NCBI RefSeq assembly: GCF_000151205.2
Contig: NC_016051.1
Coordinates: 1,860,001-1,924,000, forward strand
Source of the DNA: Thermococcus sp. AM4
GTDB lineage: Archaea > Methanobacteriota_B > Thermococci > Thermococcales > Thermococcaceae
Length of the DNA stretch: 64,000 bases
Direction: 5' to 3'
Part shown: in pieces, positions 37,557 through 46,935 of the stretch
Layout: every line of letters begins with the position of its first letter
Position numbering within the stretch: position 1 is the stretch's first letter
Made by a program: the position numbers and the translations under genes
The notes under the pieces: model-generated
Told to the model about the DNA's origin: nothing
What the model saw: only the letters and a program-made list of their open reading frames with translations
The model's database searches: none

Positions 37557-38237
37557 TCAGGGCTTCCTGACCACGAACAGCGCGTGGTCCTTCTCGTAGG
37601 GCTCCAAACTAAGCCTCTCGACGACCTCGAAGTACTCGGAAAGCTCCCTCTCAACCTCCTTGAAGACCTCCTCAGGCTCCTTGGTGACGTCGATGCTCCT
37701 GCTCTTGACCGAAATCATGCCGTAGCCGCCGCTCTTGAGGAAGACCTTTGCGTTGTCGATGAGGATTTTCGCCTGCGTCGGCTGGGCGACGTCCTCGAAG
37801 ATGACGTCAACCTTCGGAACCAGCGCGCGGTAGCCTTCGGGCTTCGTTGCATCGCCGAGTATAGGAACGATGTTCCTCCTCTCCTCGACTATCGGAACGA
37901 GCTCCCTCAGAACCCTCGGCGAGAACTCGACGCCGAATATCTTGCCCTCCCAGCCGACGATGTCGCTGACGTGGGAAGCGGTTGTTCCGCTCGCTATTCC
38001 GAGGTAGAGCACCGTTGAGCCGGGCTTAATCGGGAAGTTCTTGAGGCCGTTGAGGATAGCTGCACCCAACTTTGAACGGCTCGGGTTCCAAATCCTGTAC
38101 TCCTCGCCCTCGAACTTGATGACTCTCTCCCCGTAAACCCTCTGGCCGGGAACGAGGTTCTTGGTTGCAATCTTCTCGCTCCCGTCGTCATCGATGACGA
38201 TGTAAACGCCCGGGAACCTGTGCTTCTTAACCTTCAT
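37557..38237 (-). CDS. flpA: Fibrillarin, 2'-O-methyltransferase of C/D RNPs
   Basis: The catalytic protein (226 residues) of box C/D RNPs, which methylate ribose in rRNA and tRNA at sites chosen by guide RNAs. A small N-terminal domain precedes a SAM-binding Rossmann domain with [20 protein letters not shown] (about 78-97), [10 protein letters not shown], and [11 protein letters not shown]; the tail VRKP is typical. Five bases separate it from the nop5 stop, so they are coexpressed. A C/D guide RNA lies nearby at 40691-40748. Confidence 0.95.
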
Positions 38238-38242
38238 CTACC

Positions 38243-39511
38243 TCACCTCTTGCCCTTCTTTTTCTTCTTACCCCTCTTATCGGGCTTGCCCTTACCCTTC
38301 TTCTCCTTCCTGCCCTTCTCGTGCTTCTTGCCCTTCTTGTCCTTGCCCTTGAACTTCTTCTTTTTCTTCTTCTCGGGCTTGGCCTTCCTCTTGGGCGGGT
38401 TCGGGTACTTCTCCTTGATTTCCTTGATTCTCTGCTCGAGCTCCTTCTTGAGCTCCTCGCCGATGTATTCGCCTGAGAAGTAGTCAACCCTCGCCGCTAT
38501 GGCCAGCTTTCCGGCCAAAGCCCTCGCAATCTTACCCCTCTGCCACCAGGGCGAGCGGTTTATTGCAGGGTACTGGAAGATTACGCCGTGCTTGGGTGGC
38601 TTGGCACCGGTTCTTAAGTGCCTGAAGAGGGCCTTTTCAGCGCCAAGAACCTGTATCGTCGATGCCGGCATCATGGCAAGCTCCTTAAGACCTCCAGCGA
38701 GGCTCATCAGGCGAGCGGCGAGCTTCGCACCGACGAGGGCCTTCAGGTTCGGAGCAACTTCGCCAACAGCGGTCTCAAGGTAGTCCTCAATCTGCTCCCT
38801 CAGCTTGTAGAGGTCGGAAATCTCGCTGGCGAGCTTCCTTATGATTTCGCTGTCGAACTTGCCGAGCGGTGCTCCCATGGACTTCTCGGCCGCCTTGAGA
38901 ATCTTCTCAACCTTGCCCTCGGAGAAGCCGAGCTTTTCAAGCTTCTCCCTGCTCACGTTCTCCCTCGGGCCGATTTCCTTGACAAATGCTACATACTGAG
39001 GGTGCTTGGGCAGAATTTCGTCCAGCTCGGGGAAGTGAAGGCCGTACCACTCCCTAAGGCGTGAAACGAGCAGGTTAATGACCTTGTCGATGTCGTCCAG
39101 AGCTTCGATTGCCTGTATAATCATCTTGTCGCGCGCACCGCTCTGCTCCTGTATGCGGAGCCTCGTCAGAGCGACGCCGACGGTGTAGTACTCGTCGAAC
39201 CAGTTCTCGCCGAGGAACTCCTCCGGGCTTGAGCGGAGCTTTTCTCCTGCCAAGTTAGGGAACTCGGCGGTGGCGTTGTAGCCGAGCTCCTTGAGCTTCC
39301 TGCTCAGCTCGGTGTCCTCAACGATGAACTCTTCGTAGCCCTCTCCGCCCAGCTCGTCGAGGAGAACTAAAAGCTCGTCGCTCGGTTCGCCCTTCAAAAG
39401 CCTGTCGAGGCTTACCTCCGGCTTCCCGCTGAAGGGTTTGCTCGCGATGAGCTTCCCGCTCTCGTCGAAGGCGTAAATGCCCCTGACGTTCTCGGCAATG
39501 TAAACCTTCAC
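38243..39511 (-). CDS. nop5: Nop5 (Nop56/58) C/D RNP core protein
   Basis: 422 residues. Scaffold of archaeal C/D RNPs: an N-terminal domain that holds fibrillarin, a coiled coil, and the NOP domain that grips L7Ae and RNA (GASIV-like stretch MSLAGGLKELAMMPASTIQVLGAEKA and FRHLRTGAKPPKHGVIFQYP). The last 50 residues are almost only Lys, Gly and Arg. GTG 39511 follows GGAGGTGGTTGGG; the ORF opens three codons earlier at a weaker site. Confidence 0.93.
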   Translation of the reverse strand: MKVYIAENVRGIYAFDESGKLIASKPFSGKPEVSLDRLLKGEPSDELLVLLDELGGEGYEEFIVEDTELSRKLKELGYNATAEFPNLAGEKLRSSPEEFLGENWFDEYYTVGVALTRLRIQEQSGARDKMIIQAIEALDDIDKVINLLVSRLREWYGLHFPELDEILPKHPQYVAFVKEIGPRENVSREKLEKLGFSEGKVEKILKAAEKSMGAPLGKFDSEIIRKLASEISDLYKLREQIEDYLETAVGEVAPNLKALVGAKLAARLMSLAGGLKELAMMPASTIQVLGAEKALFRHLRTGAKPPKHGVIFQYPAINRSPWWQRGKIARALAGKLAIAARVDYFSGEYIGEELKKELEQRIKEIKEKYPNPPKRKAKPEKKKKKKFKGKDKKGKKHEKGRKEKKGKGKPDKRGKKKKKGKR

Positions 39512-39610
39512 CCCAACCACCTCCGGATCATATTGGGTTCCCTCTATAAAAAGATTTCATGCCTCCAAAGGTCTATAAACCCAGCGATAGAGCGATGATT
39601 GGTGTTAGGA

Positions 39611-40675
39611 ATGAGTGCCGGTAGGAAGTTCATAGTCAAAACGCAGAGGGGCATGGAGAGTGTGGCCGCCAACTACATCTCCGAGTTGCTGCCCGGGGCA
39701 AACGTCTGGGCATCGCCGATGGGCTATTCAGGCCTCGTGATAGTGGAGAGCTCCGATGAAGGCGCAATGGAGAAAATACTCCAGATTCCAGAGGTGGAGA
39801 GGGTGATTCCGGTCATAGTCGAGACGGAGGCAGAGCTTGAGAGAATAGCTGAGAGTGCGGAAAAGCTGGCGGGTTTCATAGGTGAGAACGAAACCTACGC
39901 CGTGAAGACCAAAAGGCGTGGAAAACACGACTTTTCAAGTATGGACGTCAACAGGGTTCTGGGTGCTAAAATCAAGGAGCTCACCAACGCCGACGTCAAT
40001 CTGAGCTGGCCGGATAAGGTCGTTCAGGTGGAGATAATCGGGGATAAGGCGTACATCTCCGTGATTCCTGGGGAGGAGTTCAGGAAGTACACCCCAGACA
40101 AGATAGACGCGAGAAAGCTCTTCTCCAAGGTTACACTTGTCCAGATGCCCTACTGGGGTGATTACAAGGCCTGCAGGCTGTTCGGCGAGAAGATAGGAAG
40201 GGCCGCCCAGGCCTTCGAGGTCAAAGAGCTGATCATCGCACCGAAGGAAAAGATGGACGCCTATGAGCTCATGGAGTTCATCAGGGGAGTGAAGGTCGGA
40301 CAGGAGAGCCGCTATCAGATTCAGAGGGATGCCTACCCCTGGAAGGTCGAGAAGGTTCCAGTTACGGTGTGGGATCTCTACCAGGTTGTCAGGGATAAGA
40401 GGCGCAAGAAGAGGCTGTTGATTATAACGGACCCCAAGGGGCCGACGCTCGCCGAGGTCAAGGAGAAGCTCGCAAAGGACATTCACTACGCCAAGGAGGT
40501 CGTCGTGTTTATAGGCTCAAGGGAGGGCATTCCGAAGGGACTCTTCCGCTTCGCCGACTACGTCGTCGATCTCGCCCCGTACATGACCTTTGCCACGGAG
40601 CACGGTATTCCAGCGGCGCTGGTGTCTCTCTGGGAGATCTACGAAGAGTTCCTTAGGGGGGAGAAGAAGGAGTGA
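39611..40675 (+). CDS. THUMP- and SPOUT-domain RNA-binding protein / predicted methylase
   Basis: 354 residues. The first half contains a THUMP-like RNA-binding domain (YAVKTKRRGKHDFSSMDVNRVLGAKI and VNLSWPDKVVQVEIIGDKAYIS), and the second half a SPOUT-like fold in which the last part (VVVFIGSREGIPKGLFRFADYVVDLAPYMTFATEHGIPAALVSLWEIYEEFL) has the knot-type glycine loops. Probably modifies or binds tRNA or rRNA; the target is unknown. ATG 39611 follows GGTGTTAGG. The gene is convergent with the DUF92 gene and the guide RNA. Confidence 0.8.
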   Translation: MSAGRKFIVKTQRGMESVAANYISELLPGANVWASPMGYSGLVIVESSDEGAMEKILQIPEVERVIPVIVETEAELERIAESAEKLAGFIGENETYAVKTKRRGKHDFSSMDVNRVLGAKIKELTNADVNLSWPDKVVQVEIIGDKAYISVIPGEEFRKYTPDKIDARKLFSKVTLVQMPYWGDYKACRLFGEKIGRAAQAFEVKELIIAPKEKMDAYELMEFIRGVKVGQESRYQIQRDAYPWKVEKVPVTVWDLYQVVRDKRRKKRLLIITDPKGPTLAEVKEKLAKDIHYAKEVVVFIGSREGIPKGLFRFADYVVDLAPYMTFATEHGIPAALVSLWEIYEEFLRGEKKE

Positions 40676-40690
40676 TTCTTTTCTTTTTTT
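40676..40690 (+). terminator. T-rich transcription terminator
   Basis: Directly after the TGA of the SPOUT gene the plus strand reads T-rich runs (TTCTTTTCTTTTTTT), the normal terminator signal for archaeal RNA polymerase. It lies at the very end of the convergent C/D RNA. Confidence 0.6.
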
Positions 40691-40748
40691 GGCGTCAGAC
40701 CCTAAGGTCCTCCTCACAGCTCGGGAATCCGCCGTAGTCATCATCCGC
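40691..40748 (-). ncRNA. Box C/D guide RNA overlapping a stop codon
   Basis: On the minus strand: closing stem GGCG / CGCC, box C ATGATGA (40744-40738), a 13-base spacer, D' CCGA, a 3-base gap, C' GTGAGGA, a 12-base guide (GGACCTTAGGGT) and box D CTGA (40698-40695). Order, spacing and the 12-base guide next to box D are those of archaeal C/D RNAs; D' and C' each differ from consensus by one base. The box C contains the stop codon of the DUF92 gene, so the RNA is probably processed from, or overlaps, that transcript. Guide targets were not searched. By the D+5 rule the D guide would methylate the U in ACCCUAAGGUCC. Confidence 0.75.
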
Positions 40749-41466
40749 CCATTACATAGAAGACGAGCGCCCCCACCAAACCACCGATCAGAGAGGCCAG
40801 GAAATTGGTGCCGTTGTTGTTGACAAAACCCCTGTTCTCGAGGGTGGCCCCGATGAAGCTGTCAGCGTTTATTCCAATGAAGCCCCCACTCAGAATAGCG
40901 AGGGTCATGGTGAGGTCGTGTCTCGTGAGGGGCAGCGCGAAGGGAATGATAACCAGAACGCCGAGAAGTGCGAAGAGTTCGCCCGCCAGGGAAACGCCCC
41001 CGTTCGTGCCGGGCTTCACGGGCTTCAGGTTCGTTATAAGCCTCGGCCTCTTTCCGTAGATCTTTCCGAGTTCGCTGGCGAGGGTGTCACCGTTGACCGT
41101 TGCTATGGCCGAGAACGTCGCGGCCCAGAAAACATCCTGCTTTGTGATCGCCTCTATGATCAGGAACACCACAACGGCCAGCCCGTTTCCGAGGACGTTT
41201 CCAACGCTCCGCGTTTTCTCCTCTATGGAGGAGAAGCCCTTTCTAACTTTCTCGCCAAAGCGATACTTAGTCGCCGCGATCCCGGAGACCAGAAACACGA
41301 GAAGGGCCAGAAGGGTGTAGACGTTGCCCAGGAGGATCACGATAAGGCCTATTACAACCGAGGCCAGCGTTCCGCTGAGATCGAGTGCCTTGGTCCTGTA
41401 CGAGATCAAGCCTAGGAATAGCACGGTGAGGCCCATGACGCCGGTTGTGAAGGATGGATCGTGCAT
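40741..41466 (-). CDS. DUF92 / TIGR00297 integral membrane protein
   Basis: 241 residues with six or seven hydrophobic helices. Family marks are NVLGNGLAVVVFL, ATVNGDTLASELGKIYGKRPRLITN and KPVKPGTNGGVSLAGE. Plant members phosphorylate phytyl or isoprenyl phosphates; a similar role with isoprenoid lipids is plausible in archaea but not shown. The TGA stop at 40743-40741 is inside box C of the guide RNA. Confidence 0.8.
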   Translation of the reverse strand: MHDPSFTTGVMGLTVLFLGLISYRTKALDLSGTLASVVIGLIVILLGNVYTLLALLVFLVSGIAATKYRFGEKVRKGFSSIEEKTRSVGNVLGNGLAVVVFLIIEAITKQDVFWAATFSAIATVNGDTLASELGKIYGKRPRLITNLKPVKPGTNGGVSLAGELFALLGVLVIIPFALPLTRHDLTMTLAILSGGFIGINADSFIGATLENRGFVNNNGTNFLASLIGGLVGALVFYVMGG

Positions 41467-42284: not shown

Positions 42285-45200
42285 TCAGGTTTTGCGGAGG
42301 GGCAGCGTGTCCCTTATCCTGCTCAGCAGTTCTTTCTTTTTCTCCGAGTCTTCCAGTGCTATCTCAAGTACCTCGTCAATGGTCTCAACGGGGATTATCC
42401 GTATCTTGGAAGCTTTATCCGGACTGAGGAACACGTCCTTCTCGTTGGCCTTTGGTATGATGACCGTCTTAATTCCCGCCTCGATCGCCGCCTCTATCTT
42501 GGGGGTTGCGCCGCCTATCGGCAGAACCTCGCCGCGGACGCTAAGCGAGCCGGTCATGGCAACATCCTGCCTGATGGGGATCTCCTCGAGGGCCGAGATT
42601 ACGGCTGTTGCAACGCTTATGCTCGCCGAGTCCCCCTCGACACCCTCGTACGTCTGAAGGAACTGGACGTGAATATCATAGCGGCTGATGTCTTCTCCCT
42701 TGTAGCGCTTGATTATGGCCGAGACGTTCTGGACTGCCTCCTTCGCTATCTCGCCGAGCTTTCCTGTGACGATTATCTTTCCTTCCTCCTTGCTCGCGGC
42801 GGGGGCAACGACGGCCTCAATCGGCAGGACAATACCGCTCTGTTCCCCGATGACGGCCAGACCGTTTACCCTTCCTATCTCGCCGCCTTCCGTTTTTATG
42901 ACCTGGTACTCCTTCTTGTTCTCTATGTACCAGTCCGCGAGCTGCTTCTCGAGGGGCTTTGCCATCTTCATGGCCTCAAGGACGTCTTCCCTCTCCACGT
43001 ACTTCTTGCCCTTCTTGACCGCTATGTCTCCAGCGGCCCTTACGATACCACCCAGATCACGAAGGCGAAGCGTCAGGTGGCCCTTTCTGCCCCCTCTCCT
43101 CTGGGCCTCGCGAACGATCTCCTCAACGGCATCGCGCGTGAAGTGCGGAATCTTGCCGTCGCGCTTGACTTCTTGAGCAACGAACTGGACGAGCTTCCTC
43201 CTGTTCTCTATCGTGTCGGGCATCGTGGTTCTCATGTAAACCTCGTAACCGTAGCCCCTAATCCTCGAGCGGAGTGCGGGGTGCATTTTCTCTATCGTGT
43301 CGAGGTTTCCGGCCGCAACGAGAATGAAGTCACAGGGAACCGGTTCGGTTCTGACCATCGCGCCGCTCGAGAGCTCGCTCTGGCCAGTAATCGGGAACTT
43401 CTTCTCCTGCATCGCTGTGAGAAGGCTCTGCTGCATCTTGAGGGAGAGCGTGGCTATCTCGTCGATGAAGAGAACCCCCTTGTGGGCGCGGTGTATCATT
43501 CCCGGCTCAACGCGCTCGTGGGCTGGAGTTCCGAGGCCTCCGGAGTTCTTGACGAAGAGGCCGTTGGCTACTAAGTTGCCCCTCTCCGTCGTCAGGTTGT
43601 AGGTTACCTCCACTTCCTCCCACGTCTCGACGAAGGTCCTCTTCTCGCTCTTCTTCACGCGCTCGAACCATTTCCTGAGCTCGTCGAGCCTGTCGGCGTG
43701 TCTCGAATCGCCCGCTTCGTTCAGGTACTTTTCAACTTCGGCGATGAACTTCTCCCTCTTCGCGGGGGAGAGGCTTATCGGGACGAGTTCAAGGAACGTC
43801 AGAACGTTGTCTATGGACTGCGACAGGATGAGCCTGACCTTGTGTTTGCCCCTTGCTTCATCAACCCTGACCTTGGCGTCTATTCCAAAGAGGCCGAGGT
43901 GCCACGCGAGCTCCTCAAAGAACGGCAGCTTGTCCTCGAGCTCCTCCGCGAGCTGAGCAACTTCAAGCGTTCCGTTGAACTTTATGCCCTCCTTGTAGCG
44001 GGCAAACCTCGGAACGCTGCCGTCGCCGCTGTAGAAGCCGTCGAAGAAGGCCAAGAACAGCGATGGCTTGAGCTTGACCCACCACGGGAGTTCAAGCCTG
44101 ACCCTTGTTTTGTTGCCGACCGGAGCACCGAGGGCCACGAAGAACCTTATAACCCTTCTGTCCCAAGTCCTGAAGAGAACGCTCCTGCCCTTTGCCTCCC
44201 GGTTCTCCTTGATTTCGTAGTCGAATTCGCCAAAGAGCTCCCTAAGGGTATCAACGAACCTTTCAACGGCTTCCTTTTCGCTTGAGATGAAGCTCAACGT
44301 GTTGAGGTTTCTGTCGATGTTACCGTCGCTGAAGAGTGCTCCCACAAGGAGGGCAACCTTCTCAAGCCTTTCGTCGTCGCTTCTTAGGGGCAGAAGGTCA
44401 AGTCCTTTGAGCTTCTCCGCCATCTTGAGGGATTTTGGCTTTGCCCCTTTCTCCCACCAGCGGAGGGTGCTCGCCTTTATTCCGAGCTCCTTCGAGGCCC
44501 TCTTGTAGCCGTGGCCTGTCCTCTCGCGGTGCTCCATCCAGCGGAAGTAGTCCCTCAGCTTGTCCTCCTCGCCGTAGGTTCCGGCTATCCCGAACTCGTC
44601 GAGCACCACAACAGGAACGCTGATGAGCTCGTCCCTTTCTGTGAGCTCCCCGACTTCTTTGAGTCCGCTGGGGGTGTAGACCCTGTGGTCTGGAGTTAGG
44701 GCAAGCCAGTAGTCCTTCTCAAGGTTGACTATCCTCCTCAGCCTCTGCTTTCCAACCCTCTTGTTGGCGTAGAGGAGCTTTGTGAAGCCTTCTCTGGTGA
44801 GGACTTCAACGTTCTCATTCCTGAAGTCGTGGTAGACTACCCTGACGTCCCCATCCGTCCCCTCGCCTGACGGGTTCTTCAGAGCATTCTCAACGAAATT
44901 CTTGAGCTTTACAGCCTTTATCTTGCCGTTTTCTCTGATAACAACGCTCTCGTTTCCGCTAAAGCACTGGAACGGGTCGTGTCTCACGTCGCCGAGCAGT
45001 GCACCCGCATGAGCTCCTGTCGCGTCTATGAACGGGGCCTTTGTCCTTCCGCAGTTGTCGACGAGGAGCTTGGGCACGAGGACACTCGTTCTCATCCTCA
45101 TGTTTGAGAGAACCATTATGGTGAGAATGATGACGAAGAGCCCCATGAGGAAGTTCTGGGTCGAGTACTGCATCATAACGGCCATCATGACCATGAAGAC

Positions 45201-45593
45201 TATCGCGAGCAGGAGGTAGGACTTTATGTTCTCCTGGCTCTTGGCCTTTTCGCGGTACTTCTGCACTATCCGCCTTCCCTGGCATGCCGGGACGGTCTTG
45301 ATCTTGGGCATGTTCTCGTCCTCTGGGTTTGGAAAGACGAGTATGTCCTCGAGGTTCTCTGTTGGGAGTAGCTCGGCCATCGCCTGGCCCAGCATGGACT
45401 TTCCAGTTCCGGGTTCACCTATCAGGAGGACGTGCCTCCTCTGCCCGGCTGCCGTTTTGATAACCTCGACGGCGTGATCCTGACCTATGACCTGATCTAT
45501 GAGTCTCTCGGGGACCTTGACCTCTTCGGTCGTCTCGAACTCGATTCCGAGGTCAAGGGTCTCGCCGGTTTGAAGGGCTCTCTCCTCTCCCAT
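42285..45593 (-). CDS. lonB: Archaeal LonB membrane protease with intein
   Basis: ATP-dependent membrane-bound protease (1102 residues; 628 after splicing). Walker A is [12 protein letters not shown] (about 53-64); two membrane helices ([16 protein letters not shown] and [16 protein letters not shown], about 118-158) lie inside the AAA+ domain, as in LonB. Walker B is VLFIDEI after the intein. The protease dyad is Ser in [10 protein letters not shown] and Lys in [14 protein letters not shown]. It controls quality of membrane and soluble proteins. ATG 45593 is preferred because GAAGGGG precedes it; a TTG at 45620 adds nine residues. Its intein splits DPFQ from [10 protein letters not shown]. 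Confidence 0.94.
43545..44966 (-). other. Intein in LonB (474 residues, LAGLIDADG endonuclease)
   Basis: Starts at Cys (codon 44966-44964, [10 protein letters not shown]) and ends GLFVKN (Asn codon 43547-43545), followed by Ser +1. The usual penultimate His is Lys here (VKN). LAGLIDADG blocks are [14 protein letters not shown] and [17 protein letters not shown] helix-turn-helix-like stretch ([23 protein letters not shown]) lies between the splice domain and the endonuclease. It interrupts the AAA+ domain just after the membrane helices. Confidence 0.92.
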
Positions 45594-45703
45594 GAGCATC
45601 CCCTTCTCTGCCTCTGGCAATGCTACCCCGCGAGACTTGTAACTTTATCCTTGAGGGCAAAGATAAAATACCCCCTCGGGCTATTAGCTTCTGGGGATGA
45701 AAG

Positions 45704-46495
45704 ATGCCTCGGGCTGTTGAAGACCACGTCATGTTCACGGCAAAGCACGGAAACTGGAAGGTTGCGGACAGGCTGATGGATATGGAGGACGAAGGGGTCG
45801 CCCGTTTCCTGGCGAGGGTTGCCAACACGGTTAACTCCAAAATTCCAGAGTACCTGACGGATGTTATGAACGTTGCTGGGATAATGAGCCTCGCCGAGGG
45901 GTTTGACGGCGATCTTACGAAGGTTATAGTTTCCCTCAAGTCTCCGGGCACCTCGAGGAAACTCGGGGCACTCGTCTTCGAGGAGGATAAGAAGCTCAAG
46001 AAACTCCTGGTTGATGCCGCAAAGGCGCTGCTGGTCAGGCTTACCCTCTCGAGGTTCGTCCCCGTGGACTATCCCGACGGTCTGCTCGAAGAGGTCCGCG
46101 TGATGTTTCCTTTCCCCGAAGACCACGTTAACTTCACGGCCAAGCACGGCAGGTGGATAGTCGTCAAGAGGCTCATAATAGACGACTCAACCCAGAAGGT
46201 GGACGTTGCCAGGCTGCTCGCGAGCATAAACGAAACGGTGACCCTTAAGCTCCCGGCTTACGCGGGCATAGATGTGAAGGGCATTGAGGAGTGGTTCGGG
46301 CCCAGGAAGAAGGTGAAGAAATCGGAGATCCCGTCCGTCGTTGAGAGGTACCTCAACTTCCAGCCCTCAGAGTTCGCCCCCGGCTTCGAGGAGCACGCGA
46401 GGGTTTACGCCCTCAGAAAGGCCCTCGAGCTCATCGGTCTTTCACTGGACGTGCCGGCCAAGAGCCTGGAGAAGTATCTTGAAAAGAAGCCATGA
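45704..46495 (+). CDS. DUF2666 family protein, internal duplication
   Basis: 263 residues built of two copies of about 130: each begins EDHV-FTAKHG-W-V--RL (EDHVMFTAKHGNWKVADRLM at residue 6; EDHVNFTAKHGRWIVVKRLI at about 138) and continues with a VARxLA helix. The family is found in Thermococcales and methanogens and has no known function. ATG 45704 follows GGGGATGAAAG. It is divergent from lonB. Confidence 0.75.
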   Translation: MPRAVEDHVMFTAKHGNWKVADRLMDMEDEGVARFLARVANTVNSKIPEYLTDVMNVAGIMSLAEGFDGDLTKVIVSLKSPGTSRKLGALVFEEDKKLKKLLVDAAKALLVRLTLSRFVPVDYPDGLLEEVRVMFPFPEDHVNFTAKHGRWIVVKRLIIDDSTQKVDVARLLASINETVTLKLPAYAGIDVKGIEEWFGPRKKVKKSEIPSVVERYLNFQPSEFAPGFEEHARVYALRKALELIGLSLDVPAKSLEKYLEKKP

Positions 46496-46554
46496 TGAGG
46501 CCGAGGACACCCGACGAAAGGATGAGGAATCTTCGCTTCGCTGAGGTGATCGAG

Positions 46555-46935
46555 ATGGAGAAGGAGTTCGTGTTTCCCGAGGGGATTTCCCCCATCGGGC
46601 CGTACAGCCCGGGCGTCGTCGCCTCGGGCAGGCTGCTCTTTGTTTCGGGCCAGATCCCCCTGGATCCCGAGACCGGTGAGCTGGTTAAGGGGACGTTCAA
46701 GGAAATGGCCAGGAGGGCCATTGAAAACCTCCTCTCCGTTGTTGAAGCCGCTGGAGGAAGCGTTGAGAACGTGGTTAAGGTAACGGTCTATCTGAGGGAC
46801 ATTGGCAAATACGGGGAGTTCAACGAGGTTTACTCTGAGTTCTTCAGCGGAGCAAAGCCTGCAAGAGCGGTTGTTGAGGTTTCCAACCTGCCCAAGGGGG
46901 TTGAGGTTGAGATTGAGGCGATAGCCGTGCTCTGA
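46555..46935 (+). CDS. ridA: RidA-family 2-iminobutanoate/2-iminopropanoate deaminase
   Basis: 126 residues. RidA removes reactive enamine/imine intermediates of amino-acid metabolism and works as a trimer. Family residues seen: GPYSPGVVASGRLLFVSGQIPLDPETGEL (with the conserved Gly and Tyr) and the Arg in KPARAVVEV, the carboxylate-binding residue. ATG 46555 follows GAGGTGATCGAG; the open frame before it is not typical of the family. Confidence 0.92.
   Translation: MEKEFVFPEGISPIGPYSPGVVASGRLLFVSGQIPLDPETGELVKGTFKEMARRAIENLLSVVEAAGGSVENVVKVTVYLRDIGKYGEFNEVYSEFFSGAKPARAVVEVSNLPKGVEVEIEAIAVL

Follow-up and report, generated by a model that had tools for sequence, protein, structure and literature searches.

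A probable double-guide box C/D sRNA gene, conserved in the Thermococcaceae, at the end of a DUF92 membrane-protein gene of Thermococcus sp. AM4

The minus strand at 40691-40749 of the window (the whole 64,000-nucleotide stretch of Thermococcus sp. AM4 DNA that was analysed) very probably encodes a conventional archaeal double-guide box C/D sRNA. A box C/D guide RNA had already been proposed here by a reading of the letters alone, referred to below as the sequence-only reading, and that central claim is borne out: both guides match the organism's own 23S rRNA, the boxes and guide cores are invariant among relatives and the family is conserved in place. The stop codon that the RNA shares with the DUF92 gene is a different matter. 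It is real, but is most likely incidental.

Architecture and rRNA targets

Read from 40749 to 40691 on the minus strand, the 59 nt RNA has a double-guide box C/D layout with the following parts.

40691..40749, minus strand: box C/D guide RNA gene, the whole unit with its closing stem (from the sequence; unit conserved in relatives)
40746..40749, minus strand: closing stem, 5′ half, GGCG, pairing with 40691-40694
40738..40744, minus strand: box C, ATGATGA (TGA.GA invariant in 13 sequences from four genera)
40741..40743, minus strand: stop codon TGA of the DUF92 gene (ORF 40741-41466), within box C
40725..40737, minus strand: D′ guide, CTACGGCGGATTC / CUACGGCGGAUUC, 13 nt (13/13 to own 23S; core GGCGGAUU invariant)
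40721..40724, minus strand: box D′, CCGA (C.GA invariant)
40718..40720, minus strand: D′-C′ gap, GCT, 3 nt (from the sequence)
40711..40717, minus strand: box C′, GTGAGGA (TGA.G invariant)
40699..40710, minus strand: D guide, GGACCTTAGGGT / GGACCUUAGGGU, 12 nt (last 11 bases pair with own 23S; GACCTTAGGG invariant)
40695..40698, minus strand: box D, CTGA (C.GA invariant)
40691..40694, minus strand: closing stem, 3′ half, CGCC (pairing kept in relatives)

The four boxes and the three-base D′-C′ gap are thus all present on the minus strand, as the sequence-only reading had them. Its GGCG/CGCC closing stem is present too, but the stem needs base 40749, one beyond the end it gave, so that 58 bases become 59. 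It had the guide lengths of 13 and 12 right, though the D guide pairs over 11 bases and not 12, and the target it named for this guide, ACCCUAAGGUCC, has to be replaced by GCCCUAAGGUCG. Boxes C and D lie near the ends of the RNA, with cores that are invariant across genera. The internal boxes on either side of the 3 nt spacer are each one base off consensus (CCGA and GTGAGGA for CUGA and RUGAUGA), yet they are conserved; box D′ is CTGA in most Pyrococcus and some Thermococcus. The ends are joined in a terminal stem at C/D, and in most relatives its four pairs show compensatory changes. When the four boxes and their spacing were scanned for as a descriptor, the window gave two matches and 100 first-order Markov sequences gave none; the second match is sR45, a C/D RNA recognised by Rfam.

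Both guides were scanned against the single 23S and single 16S genes of the genome, with 60 shuffled guides as control. The D′ guide is a 13/13 Watson-Crick complement of 23S nt 2404-2416, GAAUCCGCCGUAG. The D guide forms 11/11 pairs, one of them G-U, with 23S nt 2377-2387, GCCCUAAGGUC. The two targets are 16 nt apart, and none of the 60 shuffled guides equalled the rRNA score of either guide. The search of rRNA that the sequence-only reading had proposed therefore came out in its favour. Both guides have the features by which such guides are known: a length of about 10-13 nt, a position abutting box D or D′ and complementarity to rRNA or tRNA, here rRNA.

In C/D RNAs the methylated base is the one opposite the fifth base of the guide, counted upstream from box D or D′. 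By this rule the D′ guide is predicted to direct methylation at C2408 (Cm2408; E. coli about 2313) and the D guide at U2381 (Um2381; E. coli about 2286), the E. coli equivalents being taken from pairwise alignment. At both positions the fifth guide base makes a Watson-Crick pair, A-U at 2381 and G-C at 2408, and these pairs are invariant in relatives. C2408 opens the 3′ strand of a hairpin visible in the 23S sequence, GGCGG-GUCAGGAAU-CCGCC, which we take to be helix 84 of the central protuberance. The two guides thus have the classic double-guide arrangement, with targets within 100 nt of each other in rRNA; of 489 archaeal C/D RNAs in a catalogue, about half are predicted to act in this way (PMC4644070).

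Conservation in the Thermococcaceae

A 111-base query found matches in 32 of 61 relatives, most of them extending no further than the RNA (about positions 32-90 of the query). Family-wide, BLAST found matches in 61 of 94 genomes, and a family sequence profile, at E 0.01 or better, in 83 of the 94, a few of them weakly. Strong profile matches occur in all six Thermococcaceae genera searched. The window is matched at E 1.9e-18, though it is itself among the source sequences of the profile. Six near-complete genomes (G018, G021, G029, G030, G088 and G102) gave no strong match in the profile search. One of these, the Thermococcus genome G029 (C3:51500-55600), has a natural truncation that spares the coding end: what is left is the end of DUF92 together with box C and the greater part of the D′ guide, and nothing of the RNA beyond.

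Among 13 divergent members the invariant columns are TGA.GA, GGCGGATT, C.GA, TGA.G, GACCTTAGGG and C.GA, which are the boxes and the cores of the guides. The sequence-only reading had staked itself on conservation of both guides in relatives, and both are conserved. So are their targets: across 22 rRNA copies the D target does not vary, and the one change in the D′ target is a single far-end base in one species. Among 60 distinct members, every pair of the four-pair closing stem is preserved in 53-59, in C-G, A-U and G-C forms that reflect compensatory change. With the partner slid by one base the pair count falls sharply at three positions; that it does not at the fourth is due to the CC repeat in CGCC. 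Departures are seen in genus g12, which we take to be Pyrococcus. There a G adjoins D′ and the 5′ part of the D′ guide no longer pairs with the rRNA, itself unchanged, so that about 8-9 pairs are left; in several members the closing stem is absent or weak.

Matches from a contig pattern scan in Jordarchaeia, Bathyarchaeota and several Thermococcus proved to be 23S genes read in antisense and not the RNA. Since the guides stand in the same order, and at nearly the same spacing, as in antisense rRNA, the RNA was also considered as a degenerate antisense 23S copy. This was rejected, as the similarity of its linker was no better than that of random linkers with the same boxes (P 0.13-0.79).

The chance that the whole is a look-alike, assembled by accident from the DUF92 3′ end and the spacer downstream, may be weighed here. 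C/D boxes are short, and TGA stops account for part of their sequence. On the other side stand the empty result in 100 simulated windows, the perfect rRNA complementarity and, above all, conservation across six genera, which refutes it; an accidental origin is exceedingly improbable.

Gene neighbourhood and the stop codon in box C

The genes that matter to the interpretation are these.

37557-38237: fibrillarin gene
38243-39520: Nop5 gene, starting about 1.2 kb from the RNA
39599..40675, plus strand: convergent THUMP-SPOUT RNA methylase gene, the downstream neighbour and not part of the RNA (Pfam PF14419, PF02926)
40741..41466, minus strand: DUF92 integral membrane protein gene (Pfam PF01940, E 1.5e-54)
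46488-46546, plus strand: sR45 box C/D RNA (Rfam RF01274, 67.2 bits)

The order DUF92, RNA, convergent SPOUT gene is kept in nearly all Thermococcus and in several other members. In Pyrococcus DUF92 is still upstream of the RNA; the SPOUT methylase gene was not found within the flank fetched. A T-rich run at 40676-40690 (plus strand), right after the THUMP-SPOUT gene, abuts the 3′ end of the guide RNA on the other strand and could be the terminator of the SPOUT transcript. The fibrillarin and Nop5 genes, to which attention had been drawn as encoding C/D proteins nearby, are where they were said to be. Their proximity carries little weight, however, because within the flank fetched Nop5 lies next to the SPOUT gene in only some relatives. 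Further along the window, an ORF for a Lon-type ATP-dependent protease (42285-45620, minus strand, 1111 aa) appears by eye to have an intein-like insert in its ATPase part.

That box C contains the TGA stop of DUF92 is correct (40743-40741), and a second in-frame TGA follows it. The stop is in box C in 18 of 57 relatives, where it is always the first TGA of the box and in the same register. In the other 39 it is about 9-40 nt upstream of box C. On a tree of DUF92 at least about six changes of state are needed, three of them forced by strongly supported branches. As just 18 of the 57 have it, the overlap is not needed for function, and its repeated gain or loss shows it to be old or recurrent, yet dispensable. 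The second C/D RNA of the window, sR45, is of the same class as the RNA at 40691-40749, though its guides and its family differ. Its box C holds the TGA stop of ORF 45704-46495 and overlaps the ATG of the downstream ORF 46492-46935. With a stop codon in box C of sR45 as well, the DUF92 overlap is unsurprising. In a review, overlap with a 3′ end is put at 25% of archaeal C/D genes, and in nearly half of these cases the stop falls within box C (PMC7994747). The special standing that the sequence-only reading had accorded the overlap is accordingly not upheld, and the sharing of bases between stop and box is most likely incidental and neutral. It is very improbable that the stop in box C, with its shared register in two separate lineages (Pyrococcus and a Thermococcus subgroup), is kept by selection, with termination on DUF92 tuning release of the guide RNA.

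The shared bases also bear on the idea that there is no free guide RNA here, and that what is seen is a kink-turn in the 3′ end of DUF92 mRNA, bound by L7Ae for control of that mRNA. It has been suggested that L7Ae binds k-turns in archaeal mRNAs (PMC5539422). A k-turn needs neither guide, though, while both guides here are conserved and match rRNA, and the stop is 9-40 nt upstream of box C in 39 of 57 relatives; such a role is very improbable. Another reading is a function mainly as a chaperone of rRNA folding, with the guides bridging neighbouring 23S segments during assembly and methylation weak or absent at one or both sites. Roles of this sort have been proposed for double guides (PMC4644070), and since the closely spaced targets include one strand of a hairpin, pairing must precede folding. 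However, at both predicted methyl sites the opposing guide base is invariant and forms a Watson-Crick pair, as methylation requires, and chaperoning and methylation are not mutually exclusive. An RNA serving mainly as a chaperone is unlikely.

Biogenesis and relation to catalogued RNAs

A conventional methylation guide being the preferred reading, we infer transcription, processing, RNP assembly and methylation along the following lines. The DUF92 transcript would be the host transcript: to the eye, the GC-rich region immediately preceding the RNA shows no obvious TATA element, so the RNA is most likely made as the tail of that transcript and then trimmed out. L7Ae, Nop5 and fibrillarin would assemble on the C/D and C′/D′ motifs into the methylating particle, as is established for the C/D class. 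Both guides would then pair with their 23S segments in the domain V region, and fibrillarin would add a 2′-O-methyl at C2408 (D′) and at U2381 (D).

The RNA shares with archaeal double-guide C/D sRNAs its box order and spacing, its size, its closing stem, two rRNA targets within 100 nt and a 3′ overlap with the stop in box C, and nothing essential differs. No Rfam family reached its gathering cut-off at 40691-40749 or at the orthologue loci in 13 relatives (Pyrococcus and Thermococcus). The sub-threshold matches at 40691-40749 are mostly to C/D families and are aligned end to end. One is RF00095 (snoPyro_CD), whose boxes align with the guide RNA from end to end but with a score of 25.6 bits against a gathering score of 45, so that by the Rfam cut-off the RNA is not a member.

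The genome G010 is presumably that of T. kodakarensis, with which published sRNA and rRNA coordinates agree. Its orthologue is at KOD1 1100954-1101011 (minus strand), and there the DUF92 stop is TAA, 14 nt upstream of box C. In the published numbering this position falls between Tko-sR33 (1053770) and Tko-sR35 (1103625). The published coordinates fit the genome: the Rfam sR45 match, at about 1103571-1103625, falls on Tko-sR35/sR34 at 1103565-1103626. To judge from its place between the two numbered neighbours, the orthologue is probably Tko-sR34, already seen by sequencing. Open papers held nothing direct on Tko-sR34 or on P. abyssi coordinates; for P. abyssi, the ncRNA paper puts the number of known C/D RNAs at 59. 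The guide RNA is thus ordinary in kind, and perhaps catalogued already.

It adds one well-supported double guide to the Thermococcaceae set, with two specific predicted 2′-O-methyl sites in the domain V region of 23S rRNA. Rfam has no model for this RNA family, and the alignment is available for building one. The locus also provides a clean comparative case of a stop codon that enters and leaves box C with the RNA kept whole throughout, and so supports the view that such overlaps are neutral.
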